Of a stretch of DNA of 64,000 nt, positions 7,969 through 34,517 are shown piece by piece. This stretch comes from Wenjunlia vitaminophila DSM 41686 (lineage in GTDB: Bacteria; Actinomycetota; Actinomycetes; Streptomycetales; Streptomycetaceae), in assembly GCF_000380165.1 (NCBI RefSeq), contig NZ_KB904658.1, positions 124,001 through 188,000 of the forward strand, read 5' to 3'. Both the position numbers and the translations under genes were made by a program. Position 1 is the stretch's first letter. Each line of letters starts with the position of its first letter. The notes under the pieces were generated by a model. That model saw only the letters and a list, made by a program, of their open reading frames with translations, had not been told where the DNA came from and made no database searches.

Positions 7969-8167
7969 CCCGGCGGGGCGCTCGGGCGCGACGGGCCGGG
8001 ACCACGGGTCGGCGTTCCCGCCCCGCCCCGCGCCGCTCGGGGCCGCGACACGCCCCGTGGAGCCGCCGCGCGACCGCGGGCGCCGGTGGCAGGATCACCG
8101 GGGGCCGTCCGCGCCCGGCCGGGCGCCGGGCCACGGCCGGTACGCGTCACCGGGAAGAAGGGGACCC

Positions 8168-8812: not shown

Positions 8813-8822
8813 CCGGCCGGCC

Positions 8823-8847
8823 GGGGTCCGCCCCGTCGGCGGGCCCC
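8823..8847 (+). terminator. Hairpin terminator after the MBL-fold gene
   Basis: GGGGTCCGCC (8823-8832) pairs with GGCGGGCCCC (8838-8847) over 10 bp with one G-U pair and a 5-base loop. It begins 11 bases after the stop and separates this gene from xthA. Confidence 0.5.
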
Positions 8848-8897
8848 GGAGCCGCTGGCCCTTCGGGTCTGTCGGTGCCGGGAGGTAGATTCGATGC

Positions 8898-10564: not shown

Positions 10565-10861
10565 GTGATGTCCCCCGTCGGGGCGGATCGCCCCCGTACC
10601 GATGTGTGGTGCCCCAAATCCGTTGCTTGTTCAATCATCCCGGTCGGGCGCGATCTCGGCGGCTCCCCTGTCGTGACAGCTTGATGCAGGGCCGACATTG
10701 GCCACTTCCGCGATCGTCGGGGATGAGGCATCCTGACCGGCCCCTTTCGGGTGGAACGGCTCCCTCCACGATCTAACGGCCTTCGAGGTGACGCACGGTA
10801 GATCAGACGGAGGCAACCGCCCGCGTCCCCGCGGCGGGAACTGGCCCCGAAGGAGCCGCCG

Positions 10862-12490: not shown

Positions 12491-12502
12491 CGTCCGACCA
12501 GG

Positions 12503-13228
12503 TCAGGTCGCCGGCGTGCGCGCCTCCCGGGTCACGTCGGCGACCAGCTCCACCACGTCGGGCCCGTAGGCCTCGGAATTGATCACCTTCAGCAGCAGGC
12601 AGAACGTGCCGTTCGCGCCGTGCCTGCGGGCCAGCGAACGGTGGTGGCGGACCAGGTAGCGCACGGCCGCCTGGTTGGTGATCGCCCGCTGCCCGCTGGC
12701 GAGGAACACCGGACGGGCGGAAGAGCCGACGGTGACCCTGGCCAGCAGCACGTACTCCACCTCGCCCGGGCGCATGGCGTAGGTCTCCCCGCCGATGGCG
12801 AACGCGCCCCGCAGCGGCCCGGGTTCCGGGCTCGTGTCCACGGTCACCCCGGGAAGCAGCGAGGAGATGTGGGCCGCGGACCGGCGGTTGGAGACCGGGC
12901 CCCCGATGCAGAACTCGGTACGCCCGCCGAAACCCGGCTGCGCCACGTCGTGGCCGACCAACTCCGCGTTCGCCTGACACTCCTTGATCAGAGCGGACAG
13001 TTCGAGCAGGGCGAAGACGTCGTACCGGGCCACGTAGTCGTGCTGCGCTCCCGCCCCGGCGTGCTGGTTGATCACCAAGAGGCACTCCGCGCCACGTGAC
13101 AGGCCGAAGAACCGCTGGGTGCGCTGGAGTCGGCGTCCGGCGACCACGCGTCGGGCGCACCAGCCCAGGGCGGCGCTCACCACACTCGCCGCCACTCCGA
13201 GCACGATCTGCACCACGGTCTCATCCAT
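12503..13228 (-). CDS. Hypothetical protein with one N-terminal membrane helix
   Basis: A 241-residue protein with a hydrophobic helix at about residues 3-24, then a basic patch (RRVVAGRRLQRTQRFFG), so the bulk should be cytoplasmic. The soluble part begins with a conserved-looking core (ECLLVINQHAGAGAQHDYVA) and contains few cysteines. I know no family for it. The ATG at 13226-13228 is chosen over a TTG at 13252 because the upstream option only adds eight residues, although neither has a strong ribosome-binding site. It ends 12 bases from the convergent transporter gene with no obvious hairpin between them. Confidence 0.65.
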   Translation of the reverse strand: MDETVVQIVLGVAASVVSAALGWCARRVVAGRRLQRTQRFFGLSRGAECLLVINQHAGAGAQHDYVARYDVFALLELSALIKECQANAELVGHDVAQPGFGGRTEFCIGGPVSNRRSAAHISSLLPGVTVDTSPEPGPLRGAFAIGGETYAMRPGEVEYVLLARVTVGSSARPVFLASGQRAITNQAAVRYLVRHHRSLARRHGANGTFCLLLKVINSEAYGPDVVELVADVTREARTPAT

Positions 13229-13492
13229 GGCACCGGGATGGTAGTGGGGCAACGGCAGTGATCAACAGGTCATGTGTTCGTATGGCGGGTCAGCCGGTGG
13301 GGGAGTGGGGACCGCGGGACAGGGAAGTGGGCACCGCCAGCCCCCCGCGGGACGGCCGACCGCCGGAGGCGTGTCGAAGGACCCAACGTCGGTGCTCCGA
13401 AGCCGCGTTGGACCGTGCGCCGGCGTCCGCACGAGCACGGACGGCGTAATCTGGTACGGACCTTTGCGGCGTCACCGGTGAGGAGCTCCCTC

Positions 13493-14188
13493 ATGCCGAC
13501 ACAACGATGGCTCCCCGTCCACGGGCAGGAGTACCGGGGTGTGCCGTACCGGCCCTCCCGGATGGACCAGGAGGCATCCCTGGCCGCCGCCCGGGACCTC
13601 AGAGCGCGGATGAACGAGCGACGCACCGTCCGTCAGTTCTCCAGCGATCCGGTCCCCGAGCAGGTCGTCCGCGACGCCATCGCCGTGGCGGCCACCGCTC
13701 CCTCCGGTGCACACCAACAGCCCTGGACGTTCGTCCTGGTCAAGGACCCCGACGTGCGAAGGCGCATCAGGGAGGCCGCGGAACACGAGGAACGGGTCTC
13801 CTACGCCGGCCGGCTCGGCGAGGAGTGGCTGGAGGCCCTGCGCCCGCTGGGCACCGACGCCGTCAAGGCGCACCTCACCGACGCGCCGTTCCTGATCGTG
13901 GTGTTCCAGCAGCGCTACCTCCTCGCCGGGGACGGCACCACCCGCAAGCACTACTACGTGGACGAGTCGGTCGGCATCGCCGTGGGCATGTTGCTCACCG
14001 CGCTGCACCTGTCAGGTCTCGCCGCCCTCACCCACACCCCCAGTCCCATGCGCTTCCTCTCCGAGGTGTTGGGCCGGCCCCGCAACGAGAAGGCGTTCGC
14101 CGTCATCCCCGTCGGCTACCCCGCGGACGACTGCGAGGTGCCCGACCTCGTCCGCAAGTCACTGGACCAGGTGCTGGTCGAGATCTGA
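13493..14188 (+). CDS. Nitroreductase-family flavoprotein, iodotyrosine-deiodinase-like
   Basis: FMN-dependent reductase of 231 residues. The N-terminal part RMNERRTVRQFSSDPVP and the FMN-binding segment APSGAHQQPWTF, followed later by YYVDESVGIAVGMLL and LTHTPSP, resemble the bacterial relatives of iodotyrosine deiodinase more than the NfsB type. Such enzymes reduce halogenated phenols or nitroaromatics; the real substrate here is unknown. The ATG at 13493 is chosen because AGGAG lies 8 bases upstream, and the frame further upstream is Arg-rich noise. It is monocistronic as far as can be seen. Confidence 0.83.
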   Translation: MPTQRWLPVHGQEYRGVPYRPSRMDQEASLAAARDLRARMNERRTVRQFSSDPVPEQVVRDAIAVAATAPSGAHQQPWTFVLVKDPDVRRRIREAAEHEERVSYAGRLGEEWLEALRPLGTDAVKAHLTDAPFLIVVFQQRYLLAGDGTTRKHYYVDESVGIAVGMLLTALHLSGLAALTHTPSPMRFLSEVLGRPRNEKAFAVIPVGYPADDCEVPDLVRKSLDQVLVEI

Positions 14189-14399
14189 CGCCGGGTCCGG
14201 GGCGGGTACCGCGGACGCGCGCCGATCCGAGCGCCCCTGAGCCCATCACTCGGGGCGAAGTTTGTACCAATCCTGTCACTTCGCGGGACCACTCCCAGCC
14301 TGCCGTGCCTACCATCAGGAGAGCGAGAGACCGGGGTGCCCGGCGCCGCCTGGTGTACGGGCCCCGGCCGATCTCGGCCTTTCGGACGGGGGATGTTCC

Positions 14400-14669
14400 A
14401 TGGGCGCAGCAGGAATGATCATCGCGATCGTCGGTGTCCTGCTCCTGGTGGTGCTCTGCATGGGTTTCATGCGGGCCGACCAGGACAGGGACGAGAGTCG
14501 ATCGGGTAGTTCGAGCAGGGGCGCAGCCGGTTCCCGCACCCGCGCAGGACACAGGTCCAGCGGGAGGAACCACACCTCCAGCAACAGCCACACCTGGCTC
14601 GGCGGTGGTTGGGACGGTGGCGGAGGCGGTGGCTGCGACGGCGGCGGCGGAGGTGGCGGAAGCTGCTGA
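14400..14669 (+). CDS. Small membrane protein with Gly-rich Cys tail
   Basis: An 89-residue protein: one membrane helix at about residues 5-23 (MIIAIVGVLLLVVLCMGF), a Ser/Arg-rich hydrophilic middle, and a tail of two poly-glycine runs each ending near a cysteine (residues about 68-89). Gly-rich cysteine tails of this kind occur on small actinobacterial membrane proteins of unknown function. GGGGGA precedes the ATG at 14400. A perfect hairpin lies 167 bases after the stop. The role is unknown. Confidence 0.6.
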   Translation: MGAAGMIIAIVGVLLLVVLCMGFMRADQDRDESRSGSSSRGAAGSRTRAGHRSSGRNHTSSNSHTWLGGGWDGGGGGGCDGGGGGGGSC

Positions 14670-14836
14670 CGCGGCACCACCAGCGCCGCACCACCGGCGC
14701 CGCATCCGGTGCCCACCGCCCGGGCACAGCGTTTCCGTCGCCTCCCGGCGGCCCGCCCGCGCGGGCGGGGACCACCCCCGTGGAACCGCGCCCGCGCGGC
14801 TACGTGTGGACGGCACCGGACCGCTCGCCTGGTCCG

Positions 14837-14870
14837 CCCGGGCCTGTCTGACGTGTCAGACAGGCCCGGG
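14837..14870. terminator. Bidirectional hairpin terminator
   Basis: A perfect 16-bp stem, CCCGGGCCTGTCTGAC (14837-14852) with its complement at 14855-14870, and a 2-base loop. It stands between two convergent genes (the small membrane protein and the SDR) and can act for both. Confidence 0.65.
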
Positions 14871-14958
14871 GACCGCGTCCGGTGCCGGTTCTGCGGCGGC
14901 CGGTGGTTCCGGCTCCCGCGGACCGGGTGGTCGTGCCCGGGGCGGGGGCGCGGCGCCG

Positions 14959-15882
14959 TCAGCGGTATCCGGTGACGTCGGCGGGCTTTCCGGCGTCCTG
15001 CACTTCCGCCAGGTACCGCCAGGCGTCCGGCTGGCTTCCGTCGAGGTCGGTGAACCCGTACTCCCTGGCGAGCTGCCCGCTGGACAGCGACTGGCCGTTC
15101 CACCGGGCGACCCGCGGGTCCGCGGCCAACTCCGCCACCGCCCGGCCCACATAGCGCGGCGTCTCCGAGATCGCGAAGTGGGGCACGGCCTCCAGCGCGT
15201 TCCGCCAGTTCTCCTCGGTCACCCCGAAGGTGTCCAACACGCCCTCCGAGCGCACCCACCCCGGTGTCAGCGCCACCGCGGTGGCGCCGCGTGATCCCAG
15301 CTCCTCCCCGAGGCTGAAACCCATCCGCAGCACACAGGACTTGGCCAGGTCGTGGAAGAACGACACCCGGTAGTTGTCCCGGTTGTACTCTGCGGTCCCG
15401 TCGGTCATCTCCACCGCGAGGCCGCCTGGGTGGCGCACCAACAGCGGCAGGGCGAGGTGGCTGGTGATCGCGTGGGTCTCCACGGCCAGCCGGAGCAGCC
15501 GCAACCCCCTGTCGAGGTCGTGCTCCCAGACCGGTCGCTTCCACTCGAACAGGGGCTCCCTGCCCCAGATGTCGTTCACCAGGACGTCCAACCGCCCCTG
15601 CTCCGCATCGATCCGCGCCACCAGCTCCCGGACCTGGTCCGGCACCAGGTGGTCCGTCGGCACCGCGATGCCGCGCCCCCCGGCGGCGGTCACCAGCTCG
15701 GCGGTCTCCTCCACGGTTTCCGGTCGGTCGTCGTCCGAGCGGTTCTCCCGGGTCGTGCGCCCGGTGACGTACACGGTCGCCCCCGCCGCACCCAGCTCCA
15801 CCGCGATGCCCCGCCCGGCCCCCCTCGTCGCCCCCGCGACCAGGGCCACCTTGCCGTCGAGTGTCACCTTCTTCGCCGTCAT
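14959..15882 (-). CDS. Atypical short-chain dehydrogenase/reductase
   Basis: NAD(P)-dependent oxidoreductase of 307 residues with an SDR Rossmann fold. The cofactor motif GATRGAGRGIA lies at residues 17-27 and an Arg after strand two (TGRTTREN) suggests NADPH. The NNAG motif is replaced by LVNDIWG and there is no clean YxxxK; the nearest is NYRVSFFHDLAK, with Tyr and Lys ten residues apart. It thus resembles the DHRS1-like divergent SDR group. The start is the ATG at 15880-15882. It is divergent from the iron-uptake operon; the iron box lies about 200 bases upstream of it. Confidence 0.8.
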   Translation of the reverse strand: MTAKKVTLDGKVALVAGATRGAGRGIAVELGAAGATVYVTGRTTRENRSDDDRPETVEETAELVTAAGGRGIAVPTDHLVPDQVRELVARIDAEQGRLDVLVNDIWGREPLFEWKRPVWEHDLDRGLRLLRLAVETHAITSHLALPLLVRHPGGLAVEMTDGTAEYNRDNYRVSFFHDLAKSCVLRMGFSLGEELGSRGATAVALTPGWVRSEGVLDTFGVTEENWRNALEAVPHFAISETPRYVGRAVAELAADPRVARWNGQSLSSGQLAREYGFTDLDGSQPDAWRYLAEVQDAGKPADVTGYR

Positions 15883-24367: not shown

Positions 24368-24597
24368 ACGGATCGGCGCTTCTCCCTGACCTCTGGGCGC
24401 GCTGGAATTCCGGTGGCGCAAAATGGCGAGAGCATGCCATTTACGGGAGGGTGTACCGGCCGGTATTACGGACTTTCTGGTTCCGTCGGTGATTTCAGGC
24501 CACAGGAGGAATTCGCCGGAGCGTCGAGCCCGCTCGCGAACGCCCTCGGTGGTGCGCCAGGGCTCCCCGCCCAGTCCACGCGGCAGATGGGCCACCC

Positions 24598-24903
24598 TCA
24601 GTCCCACTCCCCGTCGCCCGGGGCGGAGAAGTCCTCGCGGTCCGGAAGCGGCGGCAGGCTCAGGTCCCGCGGCACCGGGCCGTCGTCGGTCCTGCGGGCC
24701 TGGCGGTGCGTCCGCACCCGGAGGTTCATCCGGCGTGAGCGCTTGCTGAGGCGACGTCGCTCGCGCCGTCCCGTTTCGTCGTCGTGGTCCAGCTCCTGGT
24801 ACTGCCGGCGCGCCTCCCAGAAGGAGCGCTCCTGGGCGGCTGCGGCCTCGCCGGGCGTTGGCTCGTCCGGGTCGTCCCAGGTGTCGCCGAGGTCGTCTGT
24901 CAT
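24598..24903 (-). CDS. Small highly charged hypothetical protein
   Basis: A 101-residue protein, acidic at the N-terminus (MTDDLGDTWDDPDEPTPGE), very basic in the middle (RRERRRLSKRSRRMNLRVR) and acidic again at the end. No membrane segment or known motif. The frame is open further upstream but that part is Arg/Trp-rich and improbable; the ATG at 24901-24903 is used, with no strong ribosome-binding site. It lies just left of the peptide cluster on the opposite strand. I do not recognise it. Confidence 0.45.
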   Translation of the reverse strand: MTDDLGDTWDDPDEPTPGEAAAAQERSFWEARRQYQELDHDDETGRRERRRLSKRSRRMNLRVRTHRQARRTDDGPVPRDLSLPPLPDREDFSAPGDGEWD

Positions 24904-25196
24904 GAGCCACAGGTTGACACGGATCGCTGGTGTCGGCCACGTCGCGTCGGGCGCGGACGGCTCGGCCGACGGCAGGAGCCGGGCCAAGGCGTGCCTCCTG
25001 ATTCGGGGTGGGCGGCACAGCCAAAAGAATCGTTTCACCAACCTCAGTCGCCACCGCCGTAACACTGGCCGGATTACGACAGGATTTTGTCGCCGTTTCT
25101 CGCACACACTTCCAAGGCACACGGTTTCCCTGATCTTCAGGGTGACTCCCGATGAGCCCCGGGCTGCCCAGGGGCCGAACGAGAGGAAGAAGACCG

Positions 25197-25361
25197 ATGG
25201 CCCGTAGCACGGAGAGCCAGAAGACCCGCAAGTCGCTGACCGAACGCACCCAGGACGAACTGGAGATCGCTGGTTTCGACGAGGTCGAGACCCCCGAGGC
25301 GGACATCGTCAGCCTCGGCGGGGCCAGCTACACCAAGATGCTCGGCAAGATCTACTCCTGA
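25197..25361 (+). CDS. Putative RiPP precursor peptide
   Basis: A 54-residue peptide. The N-terminal part (MARSTESQKTRKSLTERTQ) is hydrophilic and basic, residues about 20-36 are acidic (DELEIAGFDEVETPEAD), and the C-terminus is IVSLGGASYTKMLGKIYS, which I take as the likely core. It contains no cysteine and no tryptophan; Ser, Thr, Tyr, Lys and Asp are the candidate modification sites. The ATG at 25197 follows GAGAGGAAGAAG. It stands first in a same-strand cluster with a PqqD-like protein, a B12 radical SAM enzyme and an MNIO enzyme, which is the main reason for the call. Upstream, CCCTGA/TCAGGG at 25128-25142 is a small inverted repeat that may be an operator. The peptide family is unknown to me. 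Confidence 0.72.
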   Translation: MARSTESQKTRKSLTERTQDELEIAGFDEVETPEADIVSLGGASYTKMLGKIYS

Positions 25362-25369
25362 TCGGTCCT

Positions 25370-25405
25370 TCGGTGCCCTGGCGTCCTGTGGCGCCGGGGC
25401 ACCGA
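25370..25405 (+). terminator. Intercistronic hairpin (probable attenuator)
   Basis: TCGGTGCCC (25370-25378) pairs with GGGCACCGA (25397-25405), a T-G pair continues, and GGCG (25380-25383) pairs with CGCC (25392-25395): a 14-bp stem with an 8-base loop. It begins 8 bases after the precursor stop and ends 33 bases before the next ATG. Its place between the precursor and the enzyme genes suggests partial termination or mRNA protection, giving more precursor than enzyme. Confidence 0.65.
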
Positions 25406-25438
25406 GAACCATCAGGCCGGACCTCGGAGAGCCAGTCG

Positions 25439-25675
25439 ATGCTGCGCATCACCCCGGAACTGCCCTACCTGGACCAGGCAGGCCACGTCTACGTGCCGCT
25501 CGCCGGACCGGCGCAGTCCTGCCTGAAGCTCAACCGCCGCGCGTCCCAGATCTGGCGCGACGCCCTGCGCGACCCCGTGGACCTCGACGCCCTGCCCGAG
25601 GCGGACCGGGACTTCCTGCTGGACCTCACCTCGCGTGGCGTCCTACGGACCGCACCCGTATCCGAGGGAGGGTGA
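25439..25675 (+). CDS. PqqD-like RiPP recognition element protein
   Basis: A 78-residue protein whose pattern fits the PqqD fold: short strands (PELPYLDQAGHVYVPLAG), then LKLNRRASQIWRDAL as the family's LN-x-x-A-x-x-IW helix, and a last helix in DRDFLLDLTSRGVLR. Such proteins bind the leader of a precursor peptide and present it to radical SAM or other enzymes. The ATG at 25439 has GGAGA 8 bases upstream. The gene ends 1 base before the radical SAM gene start, so the two are coupled. The assignment rests on pattern and context, as PqqD-like proteins vary a lot. Confidence 0.72.
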   Translation: MLRITPELPYLDQAGHVYVPLAGPAQSCLKLNRRASQIWRDALRDPVDLDALPEADRDFLLDLTSRGVLRTAPVSEGG

Positions 25676-25676
25676 G

Positions 25677-27332
25677 ATGGACACGCTGACACGGCCGGCC
25701 GTCGCCTTCGTCAACCCCTCCGTCGGCTTCTCCGACCGCCGCAAGGCCAAACCGATCGGCCTGGCCTACATCATGGCCTACCTGGAGAAGCACGGATTCC
25801 CCAGCTCCGGTTTCGACTTCGGGGACTCCGAGGACGACGCCGTCGAGCTCGCCGAACACTACGGCCTCGATCGCTTCGACGTCGTCGGCTTCTCGGTGTA
25901 CAACGAGTCGTTCCGCGCGGCGGTCGCCATGGCCGCGTGGATCAAGAGCCGCCGCCCGCAGTGCCTGGTCGTCTTCGGAGGTCCGCACGCCACCGCCGTG
26001 CACGAGCACATCCTGGGCCGCTACCCCTGCGTGGACGTCGTCGTCCGGCGCGAGGGCGAGGAGGCGATGCTCGACATCGTCCGCGGCCTGGGCGACCGCG
26101 CCCGACTGACCGGGACCGGGGGCACCACCTGGCGCTCGCCCGACGGCGACGGGCTCCTCGTCAACGACGACCGGGCCTTCGTCCCCGACCTCGACCAGAT
26201 TCCCTTTCCCGACGCGGAGTTCGTCTCGCACTCCGGCTACCCGGACCTCACCTACTTCGACGAGGTGCAGGGCCGGCTGAAGGCCGCGTTGACGATCTGC
26301 AGCAGCCGGAGCTGCCCGTACAACTGCTCCTTCTGCGGTGTGCTCACCATCGGCCGCAAGTACCGGTCACGCGAGGCGGAACGGGTCGTCGCCGAACTGC
26401 TCCACTTCCGCGAGCGCCACGGCGTCAACTACGAGCACGTCTACTTCAGCGACGCCAACTTCTTCGTCTCACCGACCCGGGCCCTGGAGGTCGCCGAAGC
26501 GCTGCACGAGGCCGATCCGCAGATCACCTTCAGCTTCGGCACGCGGGTCAACCAGGTCCTCAAGGCCGCCGAGGTCCTTCCCCGGCTCAAGGACTGCGGG
26601 CTGCGGTTCATCGAACTCGGCATCGAGTCCGCCTCGGAACCGGTGCTGGAACGGCTCGCCAAGCACGTGAAGCCCGAGGTCAACGTGGCGGCCGTGCGCC
26701 TGTTGCGGCGGCTCGGCATCGAGATCTCCCTCGACTTCATCATGCTGGACCCGGCCACCACGCTGGCCGACATCCGCGCCAACCTCGAGTTCCTCCGGGA
26801 CGCCGGCTTCTACGACTACGTGCCGCACGACCACCTCTACACCGCGCTCGTGCTCTACGAGGGCACGCCGATCCGCGACTTCTACGCCCGGCGGTTCGGT
26901 GTCGTGTTCGACCCGGACGACCTGCCCAGTCCCTTCACGCTGTTCGAGCGGCCCGAGGTGCAGCGGTTCAGCGACACGCTCCGGGAGTTCCGCAAGCTGT
27001 GGCAGGGCCGGATCGACGGCGCCCTCGCCCAGGGCGAACTCGCGCTCGCCTCCATCGGGGAGACCCCGGACCTGTCCCGAGTGTCACACGCCCGGCTGCA
27101 ACTCGACGTGGTGTCGCTGCGGCACGCGCCCAACCTCCTGGTCGAACGGCTCCTGGAGGACGCCGAAGCCGGGTTCCCCCGGCTCGACGAGGGCGGACTC
27201 GCGGCGTTGCTCCCCCGACTCGGCCACGACCACACGCACCTGCACGACCTGATCGAGCGAACCGGGGCGACGGCGCGGAAGGCAGGCTTCGCCCAGGCCC
27301 CGGGCGTCGTCGGACCGCATGGGAGGGACTAG
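25677..27332 (+). CDS. B12-binding radical SAM enzyme, peptide-modifying candidate
   Basis: A 551-residue protein. Residues about 5-140 look like a cobalamin-binding Rossmann domain (GLAYIMAYLEKHGF, DVVGFSVYNESF, VVFGGPHATAVHEHIL). The radical SAM barrel follows with CPYNCSFC, cysteines 213, 217 and 220 binding the 4Fe-4S cluster, then strands such as ELGIESASEPVLERL. About 130 residues after the barrel are not assigned. B12-dependent radical SAM enzymes most often methylate unactivated carbon or phosphorus; peptide methylation is the natural guess here. GAGGGAGGG lies before the ATG at 25677. The adjacent PqqD-like protein would deliver the precursor. Confidence 0.85.
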   Translation: MDTLTRPAVAFVNPSVGFSDRRKAKPIGLAYIMAYLEKHGFPSSGFDFGDSEDDAVELAEHYGLDRFDVVGFSVYNESFRAAVAMAAWIKSRRPQCLVVFGGPHATAVHEHILGRYPCVDVVVRREGEEAMLDIVRGLGDRARLTGTGGTTWRSPDGDGLLVNDDRAFVPDLDQIPFPDAEFVSHSGYPDLTYFDEVQGRLKAALTICSSRSCPYNCSFCGVLTIGRKYRSREAERVVAELLHFRERHGVNYEHVYFSDANFFVSPTRALEVAEALHEADPQITFSFGTRVNQVLKAAEVLPRLKDCGLRFIELGIESASEPVLERLAKHVKPEVNVAAVRLLRRLGIEISLDFIMLDPATTLADIRANLEFLRDAGFYDYVPHDHLYTALVLYEGTPIRDFYARRFGVVFDPDDLPSPFTLFERPEVQRFSDTLREFRKLWQGRIDGALAQGELALASIGETPDLSRVSHARLQLDVVSLRHAPNLLVERLLEDAEAGFPRLDEGGLAALLPRLGHDHTHLHDLIERTGATARKAGFAQAPGVVGPHGRD

Positions 27333-27335
27333 CCA

Positions 27336-28229
27336 ATGCCCACAGCAGTCACCACCGGCTCAGCGATCCCCGAACTGGGCCCGCCCGGGGTCCGCGGGAT
27401 CTGCTTCAGCTGTGACTCGATCAAAGACATGGACGTCGCCGAGGAGACGGCGACCCGACTGGGCCCCACCGCCACCTGGTACAGCGTCGGCATCCTCGCC
27501 GATGACCAGCAACTCGCTCTTGAATGTGCGGAGTTCTGCCGCCGACACGGGCTGCACGCGCTCTTCCACCCGCTGGACCTGGACGTGTGCGGCACCGATC
27601 CGCTCGACGACCGGCTGCTGCGCGAACTCGGGCGACGCGCTGACGAACTCGACTCCCCCTGGCTCAACATCGATCTCGCGATGTGGGTCCGCCAGGGCGA
27701 GACACTGCTGGAGTCCCTGGTGCCCATGCCGCTGATCGACGAGGCCGTGGACTGGGCGGTGGACCGGATCAAACACGCCCAGGACGTCATCGGCCGCCCG
27801 CTGACCATCGAGAACGCGCCCTACCCGTTCGTCGTCGGCGACCGGGACATCCTCACCCTCATGACGCGCATCGCCGAGCGGGCCGACTGCCTCATGACCA
27901 TCGACGTCGGACACCTCTACGGGCTGCGCGTCCAGCGCGGGCAGAACCCCGTGCTGCCCAGCGATGACGACATCGCCTGGGACCGGGTCGTCGAGGCGCA
28001 CATGAGCGGCACCTTCATCCGCCGCTTCGACGGCGGCGTGCGCCTCGTCGACGACAAACACGACTGGCCGGTCAGCGACGAGGTGTGGGACCTCGCCGAC
28101 GCGCTGCTGCCGCGCGCACCCCACCTGCGGTCGGTGATGGCCGAGGCAGAGGGCATGACCGCCGACGAACTGACCGAAAGCGTGCGGCGCTTCGCACGCC
28201 GGGCCGACCACTGGTGGAGCGCCCCATGA
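27336..28229 (+). CDS. MNIO (DUF692-like) multinuclear iron enzyme
   Basis: A 297-residue TIM-barrel protein with the ligand order of the DUF692/MNIO family: His78 (LFHPLDLDV), Glu159 (LTIENAPY), Asp190 and His193 (TIDVGHLY), His222 (EAHMSG), Asp240 and His242 (VDDKHDWPV), and an acidic AEAE at 269-272. The segment VDDKHDWPVSDEVWDL is especially like the family. Known members (MbnB, TglH) use two or three irons and oxygen to rearrange peptide residues with a partner protein. It is a divergent member: the usual SxHxSW-type segment reads SPWLNIDLAMW. A xylose-isomerase-type barrel is the alternative. It starts 3 bases after the radical SAM gene and overlaps the next gene. Confidence 0.72.
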   Translation: MPTAVTTGSAIPELGPPGVRGICFSCDSIKDMDVAEETATRLGPTATWYSVGILADDQQLALECAEFCRRHGLHALFHPLDLDVCGTDPLDDRLLRELGRRADELDSPWLNIDLAMWVRQGETLLESLVPMPLIDEAVDWAVDRIKHAQDVIGRPLTIENAPYPFVVGDRDILTLMTRIAERADCLMTIDVGHLYGLRVQRGQNPVLPSDDDIAWDRVVEAHMSGTFIRRFDGGVRLVDDKHDWPVSDEVWDLADALLPRAPHLRSVMAEAEGMTADELTESVRRFARRADHWWSAP

Positions 28230-29017
28230 CCCGTGACGCGACCCTCGACTACGCCAGGGTGACCGACACCACCTGGCGCGTCCTCAACGCCACCCCAGCG
28301 CGGCGAGCCGAACTCCTCCGGGCGCTGCCCCCGGCCGAGCGCGCCGTCGTCGCAGCGGGGACCAGCGGACCCGGCTTCGACATGGAGCAGGCCCGTCGCC
28401 GCAAGACGGTCAGCAACGTGCTGAACGTCAGCTTCCCCGTCACCTTCTTCGCGTACTACGGGCGGACCGGCGCCGAGGGCCTGCACACCTTCCTGGACAG
28501 CGAGTTCTGGCAGGAGCGGCCCGCCCAGCCCGGCTCCGTCTTCCCGCCCGCGGCCACCTCGTCGGCCGCCTTCGCGGCCTACCTGCGCGACGTGGACTGG
28601 CTCGCCGAACAGGAGGACTGGGTCAGGGAGGCGTTCGCCTTCGAGGACGCCTACCTCTTCGGCCACTCCCTGACCGACGCCCGACCGCGCGCCTCCGCCC
28701 GCCCGAGCCTGGTGCCCGGCGCCTGGACGGCTGAGGCCACCTTCGACGTCCCCGAGTACGGCGCCCTGCTGCGCGAGCGGGGAACCGTGGACCCCTGGCC
28801 GGAGGCGTTGCTGCTCGTCAAGCGCCGCCCCGCGCCGCTCGCCGTCGTGTCCGTCCCCGCCGGTGGTCGCATCCGCCGGGTGCACCTCAGAGGGGACGCC
28901 GTCACCGCCCTGCGCTGGCTGTGGGACGACAGCGCCCCGGTGCCCGAGGGCGCCACCGGGACCGCCACCTACGCGAAGGCCGTCAGCTCCGGCCTCGTGG
29001 ACGAGGGAACTGCGTGA
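28226..29017 (+). CDS. Probable MNIO partner protein
   Basis: A 263-residue soluble protein with an ATG overlapping the stop of the MNIO gene, the usual place for an MNIO partner. The first half is helical and carries VLNVSFPVTFFAYYGRTGAEGL, AAYLRDVDWLAEQEDWVREAFAFEDAYL, which looks like the N-terminal helical domain of DUF2063/MbnC-type partners (Tyr/Phe-Pro, then a Gly, then a fatty helix). The C-terminal half is beta-rich. In known systems the partner binds the leader peptide and activates the iron enzyme. Identification depends mostly on position, as sequence similarity among these partners is low. Confidence 0.55.
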   Translation: MTRDATLDYARVTDTTWRVLNATPARRAELLRALPPAERAVVAAGTSGPGFDMEQARRRKTVSNVLNVSFPVTFFAYYGRTGAEGLHTFLDSEFWQERPAQPGSVFPPAATSSAAFAAYLRDVDWLAEQEDWVREAFAFEDAYLFGHSLTDARPRASARPSLVPGAWTAEATFDVPEYGALLRERGTVDPWPEALLLVKRRPAPLAVVSVPAGGRIRRVHLRGDAVTALRWLWDDSAPVPEGATGTATYAKAVSSGLVDEGTA

Positions 29018-30330
29018 CCGCTCGCGGCCCGGAGCGCGACAGGGTGCCGGCCGACCGGGCCCGCACCCTGCGCGTTCGCCGCGGATACCTCCTGGTGTCC
29101 GGCATCGACTACTTCGCCGACATGCTCCTCACGGTCACGTCGGTGCTGCTGTTGCAGTCACTGGGCATGAGCTCCGGCGCGGTGTTCGCCCTCATCGCCG
29201 CGGTGTGGATCGTCGAGGGCGTCTCCGAGATCCCCACCGGTGTCCTGGCCGACCTGCTCGGCCGACGCACCTCGGTGGCGATCAGCTTCGCCCTGAGGTC
29301 GATCGGCTACGGCGCCCTGTTCTTCAGCGGCAGCGTGCAGGTCGCGGTGGCCGGCGTCCTGCTCTCCGCGTTCGGGGGCACCTTCGCGTCCGGTGCCCTG
29401 GAGGCGTGGGCGGTTGACGAGACCGGGACCAGGGACCCGCGCGGCCTGGACCGGCTCTTCGCCCAGGGCAAGATCGCGGAGAACTCCGGCCTGGTGCTCG
29501 GCACGCTGACCGGCGCGACCCTGGGCATGCTCGACCTGGCGCTGCCCCAGGTCGTCGCGGGCGCCGCCTGCGCCCTGGCGTGCGTGCTCTCCCTGCTGCT
29601 GATGACCGGGCGGGAAGAGCCCGACCGCACCCGGGGAGCCCTCACCCCACGGCTGCGGAGTTCGGTCGGGGAGGTGGTGACCGGCACCCGACTCACCCTG
29701 CGGGGCGACAGGGTGCTGATCGCACTGATCCTGGCCACCGCGTCGCTGTGGCTGTTCCGGGGCATCCCCGGCGTGCAGTGGACGGTCGTGTACGAGGATC
29801 TCGTGGGCGGCAACCTGCTGGTGCTCGGCGCCATGCGCAGCGTCGGCTCCCTGCTGGAGATCCCGCTGCTCGGCTGGACGCTGCGACTACAGGGACGCCG
29901 GGCCTCAGCCCGCCGCACCGTCATCGTCACCGCCTCCGCCGTCGGCGCCTCCGCGCTGGCCTGCGCCGCCGTGGTCCGGGAACCGGCACTCTCGGTCGTC
30001 TGCTACGTGTGCTTCTCCACCGCGTTCGGCCTGTGCATGCCCGGGGTGCGGGCAGCCATGAACGAACGCATCGACAGCGGTCACCGGGCCACCGTGCTGT
30101 CCGTCGCCTCGCTGTTCAACAGCGTGTTCACCGGCGGCGGCCTGGTCGTGACCGGACTGGCCGTCGGTGACCTGGGAAGCGCCGCACTGGCCTGGCCGCT
30201 CGCCGCGGCGGGCTTCGGCGCCGTGGGCCTGTGCGTGGCCTCCCTGGCCACGCGCCCCCCTCCCGCCCCACCCACGGAGGTCCCCGCCGGGACCTCCACC
30301 CAGGGACCTCAGGAGGTGCCCGCTCCATGA
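29014..30330 (+). CDS. MFS transporter, probable peptide exporter
   Basis: A 438-residue major facilitator with about 12 hydrophobic segments. After the first helix the family loop motif reads GVLADLLGRRTSVAIS (variant of GxLaDrxGrr). The C-terminal tail is Pro/Thr-rich and cytoplasmic. The GTG at 29014 overlaps the preceding stop (GTGA), and its own stop overlaps the next ATG, so it belongs to the peptide operon. Export of the mature peptide or self-protection of the producer is the likely role; there is no ABC exporter in the cluster. Confidence 0.82.
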   Translation: MTARGPERDRVPADRARTLRVRRGYLLVSGIDYFADMLLTVTSVLLLQSLGMSSGAVFALIAAVWIVEGVSEIPTGVLADLLGRRTSVAISFALRSIGYGALFFSGSVQVAVAGVLLSAFGGTFASGALEAWAVDETGTRDPRGLDRLFAQGKIAENSGLVLGTLTGATLGMLDLALPQVVAGAACALACVLSLLLMTGREEPDRTRGALTPRLRSSVGEVVTGTRLTLRGDRVLIALILATASLWLFRGIPGVQWTVVYEDLVGGNLLVLGAMRSVGSLLEIPLLGWTLRLQGRRASARRTVIVTASAVGASALACAAVVREPALSVVCYVCFSTAFGLCMPGVRAAMNERIDSGHRATVLSVASLFNSVFTGGGLVVTGLAVGDLGSAALAWPLAAAGFGAVGLCVASLATRPPPAPPTEVPAGTSTQGPQEVPAP

Positions 30331-31667
30331 CCGCCGCAGCCGACGTCGAGGACCTGCTCGCCGACCTGTCGCTCGGGCGCGCCGGGCTGCCCGGCCACGA
30401 CCCCGTGCCTCCGGAGGAGCGTGCCCGGCAGCTCTCCCGTGAGATCGCTGACCTGGGCCTGTCCAGCCTCGTCGCCGAACTCCTCGGCGAGACCGCGCCC
30501 GTGCCCGCGCCCACGGCCGTACTCGACCTGGAGGCCGACGAGGAGGGCCGACGCGCCTCGTACGCCACCTGGCGCGCCGAGGCCCGCGACCTGACCGGCG
30601 AGGTCTGGCGGTGGCTCACCGACCGCCGCCGCGCCGCCGGGGAGCTCCCCTGGTGGTGCGGCGAGTCGGCGCTCCCACCGCCCCGCGACTCGGTGGCGCG
30701 GCTCGCCCAGGTGACGGCCCCGGTGCGGGACCTCTCCGAGACCGCCGCCGCCTGGGGTCGACAGGCCGGCCTGCGGGACGCCACCGCGGAACACAACTGG
30801 CGTTGGCTGCTGCTCGGCAAGGGCCTGCCGCTCCCGCGGGGCGGCACCCTGCCCCCGATGAACGAGCTGATCACCCGACTCGTCGCGGGGGCGCGCCGGC
30901 ACGGTCTGCTGCCGCTCGACCACCGGATCACGGTGCTGCGCCGTCCCAACACCCCGTCCATGGTCATGCCCGTGCGGCTGCCCGGCTCCTCGCTGCTGTC
31001 CCTGCCCACCGAGGTCACCCCGGTGACGGTCCAGTACGTCCAGCACGAGCTGGCCCACCTGGCCGAGCACGCGCTGCGTCCCCGCGACGCCCCGCTCCTC
31101 GAGCGGTGGGCGTTCGACCCGCTGCGGTCGGAGGGCTGGGCCCTGCTGCTCGAGGGCCTCGTCGGATCGACCGAGGTCCTGACCGGGCTGGGGATCGACG
31201 GGGAGACCGCCGGGGTCCTCGGCCGCTTCTTCGCCGAGGAGGAGCGGTTCAGCCGCGGGCTGATGGCAGCCGACCTGACCCTGGAAGCGGACCTCGCGGG
31301 TTGCCGCACCTCCGCCGAGGCCCTGGACGCCGCGGCTGCCGCCGCTGCCGGCACCGGACTGCGGTGGGCACCCGAACTCCTCCTGCTGCGGCAGACCCAC
31401 ATCGTGCACTGGCGTGCCTACCTGGCGGGCTACGCCTGGCGCGACACCGTCCGTGCCGAGCTCGCCTCCCGCTTCGGCAGCGGCTGGGAGGACCGCGAAC
31501 CGGCCTGGGCCCTGCTGCGGCGTGCGCTGGCCAGCACCGGGTCCGCCGCCGGGTTCCTGGCCACGCTGCGCGCACCCGACCCGATGAGGAGAGCCCATGA
31601 CGACGACCGAGACCACGGCCCCGGACACCACCGGGCCACGGGCCGGGCTGCGACTGCTCTGCCGTGA
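30327..31667 (+). CDS. HEXXH-motif protein of the peptide cluster
   Basis: A 446-residue soluble protein with HELAH at residues 240-244 and a downstream Glu at 269 (SEGWALLLEG), the ligand spacing of gluzincin metallopeptidases. It could therefore cut the leader from the modified precursor, as no other peptidase gene is in the cluster. An alternative is that it belongs to the HEXXH proteins of RiPP clusters that act as 2-oxoglutarate-dependent peptide hydroxylases. The N-terminal 230 residues are mostly helical and unassigned. Its ATG overlaps the MFS stop. Its last 24 codons overlap the start of the JmjC gene by 71 bases, so the C-terminal tail (Asp/His/Arg-rich) may be dispensable. Confidence 0.7.
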   Translation: MTAAADVEDLLADLSLGRAGLPGHDPVPPEERARQLSREIADLGLSSLVAELLGETAPVPAPTAVLDLEADEEGRRASYATWRAEARDLTGEVWRWLTDRRRAAGELPWWCGESALPPPRDSVARLAQVTAPVRDLSETAAAWGRQAGLRDATAEHNWRWLLLGKGLPLPRGGTLPPMNELITRLVAGARRHGLLPLDHRITVLRRPNTPSMVMPVRLPGSSLLSLPTEVTPVTVQYVQHELAHLAEHALRPRDAPLLERWAFDPLRSEGWALLLEGLVGSTEVLTGLGIDGETAGVLGRFFAEEERFSRGLMAADLTLEADLAGCRTSAEALDAAAAAAAGTGLRWAPELLLLRQTHIVHWRAYLAGYAWRDTVRAELASRFGSGWEDREPAWALLRRALASTGSAAGFLATLRAPDPMRRAHDDDRDHGPGHHRATGRAATALP

Positions 31668-32508
31668 ACCGCGAGACGCGGACAGCCTCCCCTGGGGTGG
31701 GACGCACGCCGTGTTCGACGCCGCGCCCGACCTCGCCCAGATCGTGTCCCGGCAGGACCTGGACGACTGGTTGGACTGTAGCCTCCTCCACTACCCGGTC
31801 CTGAACGCGATGCGTGGCGGAACCCCGGTGCCACCCGAGGAGCTGACCCGGGTCATGACCGTGTCCGGTGACCCCCGGGCGGGCTATGTGGACGGTGCCA
31901 GGGTCCGCGCGCAACTGTCCGCCGGCGCCACCGTGGTCGTCCAGAACCTGCACGAATGGCACCGCCCCGCCCAGCGGCTGTGCCGTCGCGCGGCACGGCT
32001 GTTCGCGGCCAAGGCCGGCGCCGTGGCGTTCTGGACCCCGCCGGGACAGAACGGCCTGCGCGTCCACCGCGACGACGGTCACCTCTTCGTCGTGCAGATC
32101 TCCGGAACCAAGCGCTGGTACCTGTACGACACTCCGCGCGAGGCACGCGACTGGGCGCCCGGATACGTCGAGGACCTGGACGGGGCCCACGTCCTCGACC
32201 TGCGGCCCGGCCAGGTGCTGTACCTCCCCGACGGCACCGCCCACCACGCCCGCACCCTCGACACCGAGTCGCTGCACGTCACCGTCGCCATCCGGGAACC
32301 CGGGCTCAGGGACACCGCCGAACTCGCGGTACGCGCCTGCCTCGCGAGCATCCCCGCCCACGCCACCCTCTCGGGGACCGCCGCCGAGCGCGAACAGGCC
32401 GCCGACGACCTGCTCACCCGTCTCGCCGCCGCGCTCGGGCGCGTGGACCGCGGCGCGCTGGTCCACGACCTGGGGCGCCGCGCCGCGGAAGCCCGCGGCA
32501 GCCGCTGA
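31597..32508 (+). CDS. JmjC/cupin-4-like Fe(II)/2-oxoglutarate oxygenase
   Basis: A 303-residue protein of the ribosomal-oxygenase-like cupin family (YcfD/NO66 type). The iron site reads HRD at residues 157-159 with a later His in PDGTAHHART (216 or 217); the strand RWYLYD and GQVLYLPDG are typical of the fold. Relatives hydroxylate protein side chains such as Arg or His; here the precursor peptide is the likely target, which is inference from the operon. The ATG at 31597 is preceded by GAGGAGAG and lies inside the end of the HEXXH gene. The final 80 bases of this gene occur again at 33301 as part of a tandem duplication. Confidence 0.8.
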   Translation: MTTTETTAPDTTGPRAGLRLLCREPRDADSLPWGGTHAVFDAAPDLAQIVSRQDLDDWLDCSLLHYPVLNAMRGGTPVPPEELTRVMTVSGDPRAGYVDGARVRAQLSAGATVVVQNLHEWHRPAQRLCRRAARLFAAKAGAVAFWTPPGQNGLRVHRDDGHLFVVQISGTKRWYLYDTPREARDWAPGYVEDLDGAHVLDLRPGQVLYLPDGTAHHARTLDTESLHVTVAIREPGLRDTAELAVRACLASIPAHATLSGTAAEREQAADDLLTRLAAALGRVDRGALVHDLGRRAAEARGSR

Positions 32509-32537
32509 CCGGCCCGCGCAGGAGCGGTCCGCGCCGG

Positions 32538-32564
32538 CCGGCCGCCGCGCGGGGGCGGCCGGCG
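32538..32564. terminator. Hairpin terminator of the peptide operon
   Basis: GCCGGCCGCC (32538-32547) pairs perfectly with GGCGGCCGGC (32555-32564), 7-base loop. It lies 29 bases after the JmjC stop and before the convergent DUF397 gene. A slightly changed copy is in the second repeat unit. Confidence 0.6.
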
Positions 32565-32579
32565 TGCGGGGGCGGCCGA

Positions 32580-32780
32580 TCAGGCTGTGCGGATGTGGTC
32601 GAACTCGCCGGCCTTGATGCCGCGTATGAGGGCGCCGAGGGTGGCGGGTGCGGTGGTGAGGATGACGTCGGGGTTGTCGCTCTCCCGCAGTTTGACGGTT
32701 CCGTCGGGGGCGGCGGCGAGGTAGAGGCAGGAGGAAGCCTGCTGACTGAACGAGGACTTCTGCCAGTTGAGGTCAGGCAT
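32580..32780 (-). CDS. DUF397 protein, copy 1
   Basis: A 66-residue DUF397 protein (MPDLNWQKSSFSQQ..., LRESD, LGALIRGIKAGEFD), the small partner found next to XRE/DUF5753 regulators across actinobacteria, as in whiJ-like loci. In Streptomyces such pairs influence development or antibiotic production. This copy sits after a broken XRE gene, so it has lost its nearby partner, but the frame itself is intact. It differs from copy 2 at 12 residues, mostly between positions 7 and 47. Confidence 0.8.
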   Translation of the reverse strand: MPDLNWQKSSFSQQASSCLYLAAAPDGTVKLRESDNPDVILTTAPATLGALIRGIKAGEFDHIRTA

Positions 32781-32792
32781 GACTGGTCCCTT

Positions 32793-33300
32793 TCACAGAC
32801 GTTGAGCCGCTCGATTCATGAGGTCTCGTGATTCTTCCGCGGGCAAGGCGATCTCCTCCATCCGGTCCAGCAGCATGCGGTACATCTCCGCCTTTGCCGG
32901 GGCGTCGACTAGTTCACTGCCGTGAGTGGTGTCCAGTTGCACGGTGTCCAACTGGCTGACTGGACCACTGAAGTAGTCGATTCCGTGGCCGGAAGGTGGA
33001 AGAAGACGGATCGGGCGTGATCGGGTGCTTGGAGGAGTCCAGGCACATTCACCAGTTGGGAGGTGCGCACGGCTGTTGCGTGGTGTTCCAGTTCGGTGAG
33101 CTCGAGCAGCCCTGCCTGGAGTAGGTCCTGGTATTCCTCCCACCATCCGCGAGTCCGGTCCCCGGTCATTCCCGCGAGGGCGTCGATCAGGGCCCGATCT
33201 GAACAGGCGTAGTTCCGAGCCAACGCACGTACCCTGTTGCCGCTGACTCCGTACCGACCGGCTTCGATGTTGCTGATGCGGGACTGGGCGACGCCGAGTT
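32793..33300 (-). pseudogene. Broken XRE/DUF5753 regulator gene, copy 1
   Basis: Matches the intact gene at 33663-34517 but with three lesions. The N-terminal coding part, including the first half of the helix-turn-helix, is cut off where the repeat unit ends at 33300. A 241-base deletion removes the middle of the DUF5753 domain around 32992-33012, and because 241 is not a multiple of three the remaining C-terminal part (PSGHGIDYFSGPVSQ... to the stop) is out of frame with the upstream part. No functional product is expected. Confidence 0.85.
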
Positions 33301-33449
33301 GCCGCGCTCGGGCGCGTGGACCGGGGCGCGCTGGTCCACGACCTCGGGCGCCGCGCCGCGGAAGCCCGCGGCAGCCGCTGACCGGCCCACGCAGGAGCGG
33401 TCCGTGCCGGCCGGCCGCCGCGCGGGGGCCGGCGTGCGGGGCCGGCGGA

Positions 33450-33650
33450 TCAGGCCGTGCGGAGGTGGTCGAACTCGCCGGCCTTGATGCCGCGTATGAG
33501 GGCGCCGAGGGTGGCGGATCTGGTGGTGAGGACGACCTCGGGGGCGTCGCTCTCCCGCAGTTTGATTGTTCCGTCGGGGGTGGCGGCGAGGTAGAGGCAG
33601 GAAGAGGCCCTTTCGCTGTACGACGACTTTTTCCAGTTGAGGTCAGGCAT
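33450..33650 (-). CDS. DUF397 protein, copy 2
   Basis: A 66-residue DUF397 protein (MPDLNWKKSSYSERAS..., LRESD, LIRGIKAGEFD). It starts 12 bases after the stop of the intact XRE/DUF5753 gene, so the two are co-transcribed as in other whiJ-like pairs. DUF397 proteins are thought to act with, or antagonise, the adjacent regulator. Target genes cannot be inferred, though the peptide operon and the divergent ATP-binding gene are the nearest candidates. Confidence 0.85.
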   Translation of the reverse strand: MPDLNWKKSSYSERASSCLYLAATPDGTIKLRESDAPEVVLTTRSATLGALIRGIKAGEFDHLRTA

Positions 33651-33662
33651 GACTGGTCCCTT

Positions 33663-34517
33663 TCACAGACGTTGAGCCGCTCGATTCATGAGGTCTCGCG
33701 ATTCTTCCGCGGGCAAGGCGATCTCCTCCATCCGGTCCAGCAGCAAGCGGTACATCTCCACCTTTGCCGGGGCGTCGACCAGTTCACTGCCGTGAGTGGT
33801 GTCGAGCTGCACGGTGTCCAACTGGCTGACTGGACCACTGAAGTAGTCGATTCCGTGGCCGGATGGCGGGAAGCCGTCGCTGGTGAAGGGAATCACCAGA
33901 ATGGTGATGTTCTCGTGCTCACTCAGCTCGATCAGGTGCCTGAGCTGTGCCTTGGCAACGTAGGTTCCTCCGAACCGCATGTGCAGCGCCGCCTCATGGA
34001 GGACGGCGGTGTAGGGAGTGGGCCGTTGGCGATGAAGGATTCCCTGTCGCCTGATCCGGTGGGCGACCATGTGCTCGACCTCGTGCGGCAAGAGAGGTGG
34101 AACTGCTTGCCCGAAGATGGAGCGGGCGTGATCGGGTGTTTGGAGGAGTCCAGGCACATTCACCAGTTGGGAAGTGCGCAGGGCTGTTGCGTGGTGTTCC
34201 AGTTCGGTGAGCTCGAGCAGCCCTGTCGGGAGAAGGTCCTGGTATTCCTCCCACCATCCGCGAGTCCGGTCCCCGGTCATTCCCGCGAGGGCGTCGATCA
34301 GGGCCTGATCCGAGCAAGCGTAGTTCCGAGCCAACGCACGCACCCTGTTGCCGCTGACTCCGTACCGACCGGCTTCGATGTTGCTGATGCGTGACTGGGT
34401 GACGCCCAGGAGCGTGGCCGCCTCCGTGGCACTCAGAGCGGCACGCTCCCGAAGCCTGCGTAGCTCAACGCCAAGACGGCGACGTCGGGCGGTTGGTGGT
34501 GAGCCGCTCTGCGGCAT
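33663..34517 (-). CDS. XRE-family regulator with DUF5753 domain (WhiJ-like)
   Basis: A 284-residue regulator. The helix-turn-helix lies at about residues 16-70 (LRERAALSATEAATLLGVTQSRISNIE) and the DUF5753 domain at about 85-275 (YQDLLPTGLLELTELEHHA, SQLVNVPGLLQTPDHAR). The start is the ATG at 34515-34517. The next gene downstream is DUF397, and an HATPase protein is divergent across 187 bases, the three-gene set seen many times in Streptomyces and relatives (whiJ/abaA-like). It may regulate the neighbouring peptide cluster, but these loci are often independent of what surrounds them. Confidence 0.88.
   Translation of the reverse strand: MPQSGSPPTARRRRLGVELRRLRERAALSATEAATLLGVTQSRISNIEAGRYGVSGNRVRALARNYACSDQALIDALAGMTGDRTRGWWEEYQDLLPTGLLELTELEHHATALRTSQLVNVPGLLQTPDHARSIFGQAVPPLLPHEVEHMVAHRIRRQGILHRQRPTPYTAVLHEAALHMRFGGTYVAKAQLRHLIELSEHENITILVIPFTSDGFPPSGHGIDYFSGPVSQLDTVQLDTTHGSELVDAPAKVEMYRLLLDRMEEIALPAEESRDLMNRAAQRL

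Follow-up and report, generated by a model that had tools for sequence, protein, structure and literature searches.

What does a compact operon of eight genes in Wenjunlia vitaminophila DSM 41686 produce, and is it an operon of a kind already described? The genes lie at 25197-32508 of the window, by which we mean the whole 64-kb stretch of contig NZ_KB904658.1 analysed here (the host genome is 6.43 Mb), and they are eight open reading frames (ORFs) on the plus strand encoding, in this order, a precursor peptide, a small protein of 78 amino acids, a B12-binding radical SAM enzyme (B12-rSAM), an MNIO enzyme, a partner protein of the MNIO, an MFS transporter, a protein with an HEXXH motif and a JmjC-type oxygenase. 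A preliminary description of this DNA had given the same order and interval, which the ORF calls bear out. We consider it probable that these genes form a biosynthetic cluster for a ribosomally synthesized and post-translationally modified peptide (RiPP), belonging to a family for which no description was found in the literature searched, namely titles and the openings of abstracts; supplementary files, which hold most lists of related clusters, lay outside this search. The product is probably undescribed. The kinds of genes are known from the biphenomycin (bip) cluster, and what is probably new is the precursor family and the clades to which the MNIO and the B12-rSAM belong.

The evidence that carries this reading comes from the precursor gene (25197-25361, plus strand), which runs from an ATG at 25197 to a stop codon ending at 25361 and encodes 54 amino acids, as had been proposed; the peptide ends in ASYTKMLGKIYS. 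Conservation of this small peptide beside homologous enzyme genes had been named beforehand as the point on which the interpretation as a RiPP cluster would turn, and the precursor is kept beside such genes in five loci, that of the window and four others (L040-L043), which supports the interpretation. The orthologs in L040-L043 show 93, 87, 91 and 52% identity, the last being that of Streptomyces sp. WM6378. The segment ASYTKMLG[KR]IY is invariant across the five loci except for the K/R alternation at residue 51, and it is kept in WM6378 even though the precursor as a whole is just 52% identical there; the C-terminal residue that follows it varies among Ser, Ala and Asn. On the basis of this invariance we propose that the segment, ASYTKMLGKIY in the window (residues 43-53, 25323-25355), is the core. 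The proposed core contains no Cys, Asn or Asp. No Cys occurs anywhere in the window precursor or in those of the three closely related loci, nor in the WM6378 core. Within the last 34 codons, four synonymous and no nonsynonymous changes separate the window from L040, and three and one, respectively, separate it from L042, a pattern that leans to purifying selection. The precursor was found once in its own genome, which was the only one of 61 relatives searched to contain it. A precursor profile searched against 345 genomes of the class gave two matches, the window's own and a weak one (E 0.008) that lies inside a frame of 404 amino acids and was taken as chance. A precursor scan of viral contigs returned 30 stretches and no relative, and the papers listed for the string TKMLG deal with unrelated matters such as SNAP-25 and botulinum toxin.

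Related loci were sought in genome contigs with the MNIO alignment, in a scan that was keyed on two exact peptide patterns and whose counts are therefore a lower bound. It returned 105 pattern stretches and 11 relatives, five of them at 43-93% identity (L040-L044) and six being generic MNIOs at 28-33%. All eight genes are present in the same order in S. phaeochromogenes and S. tauricus, and seven of the eight, in order, in S. beigongshangae, where no JmjC hit was obtained in the locus, including a reading of the sequence after the HEXXH gene. WM6378 (L043) has the precursor, the 78-amino-acid protein, the B12-rSAM, two MNIO-partner pairs, the HEXXH protein and the MFS transporter; its locus gave no JmjC hit, and a YqcI/YcgG-like gene located after the HEXXH gene (L043 14202-14795; 22.7 bits, under the cut-off of 27) is a possible substitute. 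The S. netropsis cluster (L044 8600-14200), with two MNIO-partner pairs, an HEXXH gene, a YqcI-like gene and an MFS gene, looks decayed: neither MNIO matches over its full length, the match to the first beginning only at residue 140, and no precursor, 78-amino-acid protein or B12-rSAM hit was found in the locus. In three species the cluster adjoins a class II (D/K/N) tRNA synthetase gene, by sequence aspS; this gene is not in the window flanks compared, and the window flanks do not match those of the three species there. Because the same order recurs in other species, and in three of them stands elsewhere on the chromosome, we regard the gene set as more than a chance assembly.

MNIO matches occur in 265 of the 293 genomes of the order, and among the matches listed an identity above 40% is reached only in the own genome, S. 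tauricus and S. netropsis. The B12-rSAM has matches in 165 of the 293; ranked by E-value, the own genome and S. tauricus (88%) come first, and the match that follows them stands at 30%. Among plasmid records, 234 have an MNIO match, none of which covers 80% of the query and all of which are below 60% identity. The cluster is real, conserved and rare.

Searches of the window proteins against Pfam and NCBIfam, listed to E 1, place four of the products in families above the Pfam cut-offs, and the corresponding earlier assignments hold. The B12-rSAM (25677-27332, plus strand; 551 amino acids) matches B12-binding (PF02310, 63.9 bits against a cut-off of 32.1) and Radical_SAM (PF04055, 73.1 against 29.5), and a motif scan finds the CX3CX2C motif CPYNCSFC at residue 213 (26313-26336). 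The MNIO (27336-28229, plus; 297 amino acids) matches DUF692/PF05114 (99.6 bits against 25; 2.3e-28). The MFS transporter (29014-30330, plus; 438 amino acids), probably an exporter, matches MFS_1 (PF07690, 73.8 bits against 33.4) and has homologs in L040-L044, and the JmjC-type oxygenase (31597-32508, plus; 303 amino acids), with its HRD (HxD) motif at residue 157 (32065-32073), matches JmjC_2 (PF08007, 66.9 bits against 22; 1.6e-18). Neither collection gives a match over a cut-off for the other four products (precursor, 78-amino-acid protein, partner and HEXXH protein).

The MNIO residues H78, E159, D190, H222, D240 and H242, which we take to be metal ligands, are the same in 31 of 31 other and six of six bip-type MNIOs compared. 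The TIM-barrel protein hits no Pfam family but PF05114 at E 1 and keeps these six positions, so that it does not group with sugar enzymes, a grouping that had been named as a danger to the RiPP interpretation, and a sugar-isomerase reading is ruled out. Positions 113 and 193 are Asp and His in the window clade and in six of six bip-type MNIOs, whereas 29 of the 31 others have His and Asn there. A tree of 44 MNIO rows, in which the program flags long branches, puts the window and bip MNIOs in separate, fully supported clades, and one supported branch unites these two clades and three other rows against the rest. Two MNIOs (L017 and L025, from genomes G100 and G068) adjoin the bip clade in this tree on very long branches. 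The relatives of the window MNIO in the PDB are 3bww and 8hci_D, the latter being the DUF692 chain of its entry (2.5e-8 for 8hci).

The partner (28226-29017, plus; 263 amino acids) had been described as a probable MNIO partner, and its predicted fold agrees. Sequence searches of the PDB with profiles of the 78-amino-acid protein, the partner and the HEXXH protein gave only weak hits, taken as chance, and for this reason the folds of the partner and the HEXXH protein were predicted. The AlphaFold2 model of the partner has a mean predicted local distance difference test score (pLDDT) of 82.7. Its best Foldseek matches are chain A of the TglHI entries 8hi7 and 8hci (1.3e-4 and 3.1e-4), the next row being at 1.7, and the top rows of VIA-align are 8hci_A (Z 10.0, root mean square deviation (rmsd) 6.0), 8hi7_A (9.3, rmsd 6.5), NGO1945 (3dee, 7.9) and chain C of MbnABC (4.5). 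Since the MNIO profile hits chain D, which is named DUF692, chain A is left as TglI. The predicted model thus suggests a TglI-like partner, and the pair resembles TglHI on both sides, the MNIO being related to the DUF692 chain of 8hci and the partner modelling on its chain A. TglHI acts on a C-terminal Cys, whereas the window precursor has none. The model also fits the PME-type 2 partner proteins, of which NGO1945 and TglI are named as relatives (PMC12452194).

The chemistry of the B12-rSAM is less readily approached from its family. Its nearest solved sequences are TokK (7.5e-18) and OxsB (9.9e-15), and also the apramycin oxidoreductase, enzymes that act on small molecules. A grouping of this kind had been named as a danger to the RiPP interpretation for the radical SAM protein as well, and with these neighbours and with scores far below every NCBIfam cut-off its action on a peptide is no more than plausible; the best model is ApyD (131.2 bits against 750), and the BchE and ArsL models, of small-molecule enzymes, score nearly as high, so that the family gives little guidance on the reaction. 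ApyD makes beta-methyltyrosine (PMC11117315), and both BipD (PMC12707348) and PbsB (PMC12257519) cross-link; for the window enzyme either methylation or cross-linking would be possible. Residues 508-535 give a match to the DprA winged helix below the cut-off (18.2 against 22.9 bits), which could hint at a recognition-type domain at the C-terminal end.

The likeness to the bip cluster raises the question of whether the window cluster is simply one of its family. The bip operon comprises genes for a precursor, an MFS transporter, a TPR/arginase protein, a B12-rSAM, an MNIO, a partner, a JmjC protein, an alpha-ketoglutarate-dependent HExxH hydroxylase (aKG-HExxH) and TldD (Strunk 2025, PMC12707348), and the pbs cluster is similar (Padhi 2025, PMC12257519). 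The enzyme combination, which the preliminary description had considered undescribed, is accordingly not so, since MNIO, partner, B12-rSAM, JmjC, aKG-HExxH and MFS genes all stand in the bip cluster. That the window holds a bip/pbs member that has lost its arginase and TldD genes is favoured by this nearly identical set of gene kinds, with precursor, MFS, B12-rSAM, MNIO, partner, JmjC and HEXXH genes in common, by the related JmjC protein, by the shared D113/H193 and by the tree branch that holds both MNIO clades with three other rows; the peptides also have aromatic residues in common. We recovered five bip-like loci through the pattern FHAFRF as yardsticks; the pattern is absent from the Wenjunlia genome, and the window precursor has neither an FRF/FHAFRF nor a YHxYxY/FHTFMF motif. 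Ten bip proteins from L082, L083 and L085 (two each of TldD, arginase and B12-rSAM and one each of aKG-HExxH, partner, JmjC and MFS) were used as tblastn queries at E 0.01, the bip MNIO being excluded because it does match the window. Of the four remaining bip loci each query recovers between two and four, and in the window only the JmjC query matches, at 37% over part of the domain (2.9e-6). The aKG-HExxH, partner, MFS and B12-rSAM queries find nothing there, and neither do those for arginase and TldD in the 64-kb window, the rest of the genome not having been searched; related bip/pbs clusters without Arg are also without arginase (PMC12257519). By phmmer the window B12-rSAM reaches two of the five bip loci (3.4e-10 and 6.7e-6), whose enzymes fall in a separate clade, just as the MNIOs of the two groups form separate, fully supported clades. 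The window cluster further differs in its extra 78-amino-acid protein and in the kind of HEXXH protein, although aKG-HExxH is not constant in bip-like loci, none having been found in L082. Membership of the bip family is therefore largely refuted, and we give it little credence. The aminopyruvatide (apy) cluster likewise shares the MNIO and B12-rSAM genes and a Tyr-containing precursor, with ApyD as the best NCBIfam model for the window B12-rSAM, but ApyD and ApyH score far under their cut-offs (131.2 against 750 and 40.6 against 400 bits), no P450 or methyltransferase is found by Pfam among the eight window genes and the C-terminal residue is Ser/Ala/Asn and not Asp (PMC11117315). In its working the window cluster is like bip and apy, but by these comparisons it belongs to neither family. 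A copper-binding, bufferin-like product would agree with the fact that BufB and HvfB are the best-scoring NCBIfam models for the MNIO, yet these are far below their cut-offs (81.4 against 310 and 75 against 360 bits); the lack of Cys in the four close precursors and in the WM6378 core, together with D113/H193 where 29 of the 31 non-bip MNIOs have His and Asn, makes such a product scarcely credible. Rather improbable, too, is a cofactor or intracellular signal that is derived from the conserved Tyr/Lys segment, after the logic of pyrroloquinoline quinone and mycofactocin, and is not secreted. The near-perfect conservation of the core and the succession of a small protein and a radical SAM gene speak for it, but the MFS gene is kept in all five related loci, the cluster is rare (at least five related loci) and can be lost, as decayed and deleted copies attest, and no dedicated user enzyme was noticed nearby, where no search aimed at one was made.

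The alternative of greatest weight concerns the HEXXH protein (30327-31667, plus; 446 amino acids), which had been listed among the peptide-modifying enzymes. Its motif is present, as HELAH at residue 240 (31044-31058), but the protein has no Pfam family at E 1, and three homologs have none even at E 10. H240, E241, H244 and E269 (31131-31133) are invariant in six HEXXH homologs, E269 being 29 residues after the first His. This spacing is about that of ACE and thimet oligopeptidase, and HExxH with a distal Glu is the ligand pattern of the M2, M3 and M32 peptidases. In VIA-align the AlphaFold2 model, made from six sequences, matches oligoendopeptidase F (2h1j) with Z 18.5 and rmsd 4.8 over 312 aligned residues, followed by Pz peptidase, ACE2, neurolysin and M32 carboxypeptidases, with DUF885 at 13.4; identity in these rows is 8-17% among the matches listed. 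VIA-align cautions that for mostly helical models a Z of 14 is typical of the best row and that values as high as 13 occur at rank 50; against this background the top rows stand out and the lower ones do not. The first 25 Foldseek rows are all entries of M32, ACE/ACE2, M61, thimet oligopeptidase and neurolysin. TIGR04267, the model of aKG-HExxH hydroxylases, gives no hit to the window protein at E 0.1, whereas the same search credits three HEXXH proteins of bip loci with 66-70 bits (cut-off 40). On account of the fold matches, the HExxH-x24-E residues and this control, we read the protein as more likely a zinc peptidase of the M2/M3/M32 type, which may be the leader protease, than as a modifying oxygenase; it shares its predicted fold and the HExxH-x24-E pattern with the gluzincin peptidases M3 (oligoendopeptidase F), M32, M2 (ACE) and DUF885 and differs from them in lacking Pfam membership. 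The competing view is that it is an alpha-ketoglutarate/Fe(II) beta-hydroxylase of the HExxH type like BipH, with the leader protease encoded elsewhere in the genome. Such enzymes accompany MNIOs in the bip and pfl/pos clusters (PMC12707348, PMC12636437), and we hold this view to be unlikely, though to a degree that has to be taken seriously, in the face of the absent TIGR04267 hit, the similarity to M2/M3/M32 peptidases over most of the chain and the invariant Glu. No aKG-HExxH enzyme is named among the best 50 VIA-align rows, which carries no weight.

Several observations weigh against our reading of the cluster and of its parts. The model of the HEXXH protein has a low mean pLDDT of 63.3 (52-90 in ten-residue blocks over residues 131-420, and mostly lower in earlier blocks), its best Foldseek match has an E-value of 2.6e-3 and none reaches 0.001, and aKG-HExxH hydroxylases are themselves called zincin-like, one of them, PflC, also hydrolysing peptides (PMC12636437). 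The MNIO and the B12-rSAM are, by their sequences, too far from characterised enzymes to predict the residue modified, and the nearest solved relatives of the latter are small-molecule enzymes. Four loci share all 33 core bases, and WM6378 departs from them only in the K/R codon; because silent sites are thus invariant as well, the codon data cannot show selection on the core peptide itself. With two MNIO pairs, no JmjC hit and nearly the same core, WM6378 may make a product that differs from that of the window cluster. Finally, the small protein of 78 amino acids (25439-25675, plus) had been called PqqD-like; the gene is present and has homologs in L040-L043 (47-79% identity), but the label is weak, as neither Pfam nor NCBIfam gives the window protein a hit at E 1, the L043 homolog alone gives a PqqD hit under the cut-off (15.5 against 23.4 bits) and hhalign against PqqD gives a probability of 0.5%. 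It may be a discrete RiPP recognition element, with PqqD-likeness weakly suggested.

For the cluster as a RiPP system we can nevertheless outline a working scheme, in which, as we infer from synteny, all enzymes would act on one peptide. Two proteins would bind the acidic leader (about residues 20-41), namely the 78-amino-acid protein and, through its C-terminal domain, the MNIO partner. The MNIO and its partner would form a heterodimer of the TglHI type that oxidises the core ASYTKMLG[KR]IY, and hydroxylation of Tyr45 and/or Tyr53 is our first guess, because the core lacks Cys, Asn and Asp and because D113/H193 is common to the bip-type MNIOs that hydroxylate aromatic residues; PbsCD hydroxylates Phe, and PbsCD with PbsB accepts Tyr in an engineered YTY variant (PMC12257519). 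The B12-rSAM would then either C-methylate the core, as in the case of ApyD and of the methyltransferase TokK, or cross-link the tyrosines, as in that of BipD/PbsB. The JmjC protein would be an optional side-chain hydroxylase, perhaps acting on Lys, the HEXXH protein, as a zinc peptidase like ACE, oligoendopeptidase or M32, would remove the leader, and the MFS protein would export the product. As a tentative proposal, which may well need revision, we suggest that the cluster represents a RiPP class of its own. Its MNIO, as one of those that hydroxylate aromatic residues, and its B12-rSAM, from a lineage so far uncharacterised, would jointly remodel the tyrosines of ASYTKMLG[KR]IY, with a leader protease like ACE/oligoendopeptidase and a co-travelling protein of 101 amino acids.

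The last-mentioned protein is encoded by a divergent ORF upstream of the cluster (24601-24903, minus strand), which the earlier gene list had not included. Its homologs stand upstream of the precursor in L040-L043, and it travels with the cluster. In the order, five of 197 genomes have a homolog, namely the own genome, S. tauricus (G159), S. netropsis (G091, partial, in the decayed cluster), G121 and G078; no Pfam hit was obtained at E 0.1. G121 contains a scar of the cluster (L118, about 9315-10042) and is collinear with WM6378, with about 91% identity on both sides; compared with WM6378 7501-15551 it shows one clean deletion, which starts shortly before the precursor, reaches into the MFS gene and spares the divergent ORF as well as the last part of the MFS gene. 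G078 carries the ORF homolog, and none of the cluster genes was found there within 20 kb.

As to the arrangement of the eight genes, overlaps of 4 bases, previously said to be the rule, occur at three of the seven junctions (MNIO/partner, partner/MFS and MFS/HEXXH). The first three junctions, from the precursor to the MNIO, are gaps of 77, 1 and 3 bases, and the HEXXH and JmjC genes overlap by 71 bases. No sigma-70-like promoter or terminator was found in 24500-25700. Directly after the cluster lies a tandem duplication (32428-34517). It takes in the final codons of the JmjC gene together with a DUF397 ORF and the gene of a helix-turn-helix/DUF5753 regulator, with repeats of 134 nucleotides at 96%, 300 at 90% and 297 at 95%; the first copy of the regulator looks incomplete.

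To our knowledge, few MNIO reactions are known. The sites reported for these enzymes include Cys, Asn, Asp and Phe (PMC12257519). The present operon brings together, in a compact form, an MNIO substrate whose proposed core is free of Cys, Asn and Asp and a B12-rSAM that has no characterised close relative, and orthologs of the cluster sit in named Streptomyces strains. The cluster would test whether MNIOs of the D113/H193 type generally hydroxylate aromatic residues, and also whether a peptidase like ACE/M3 can serve as the leader protease of a RiPP.

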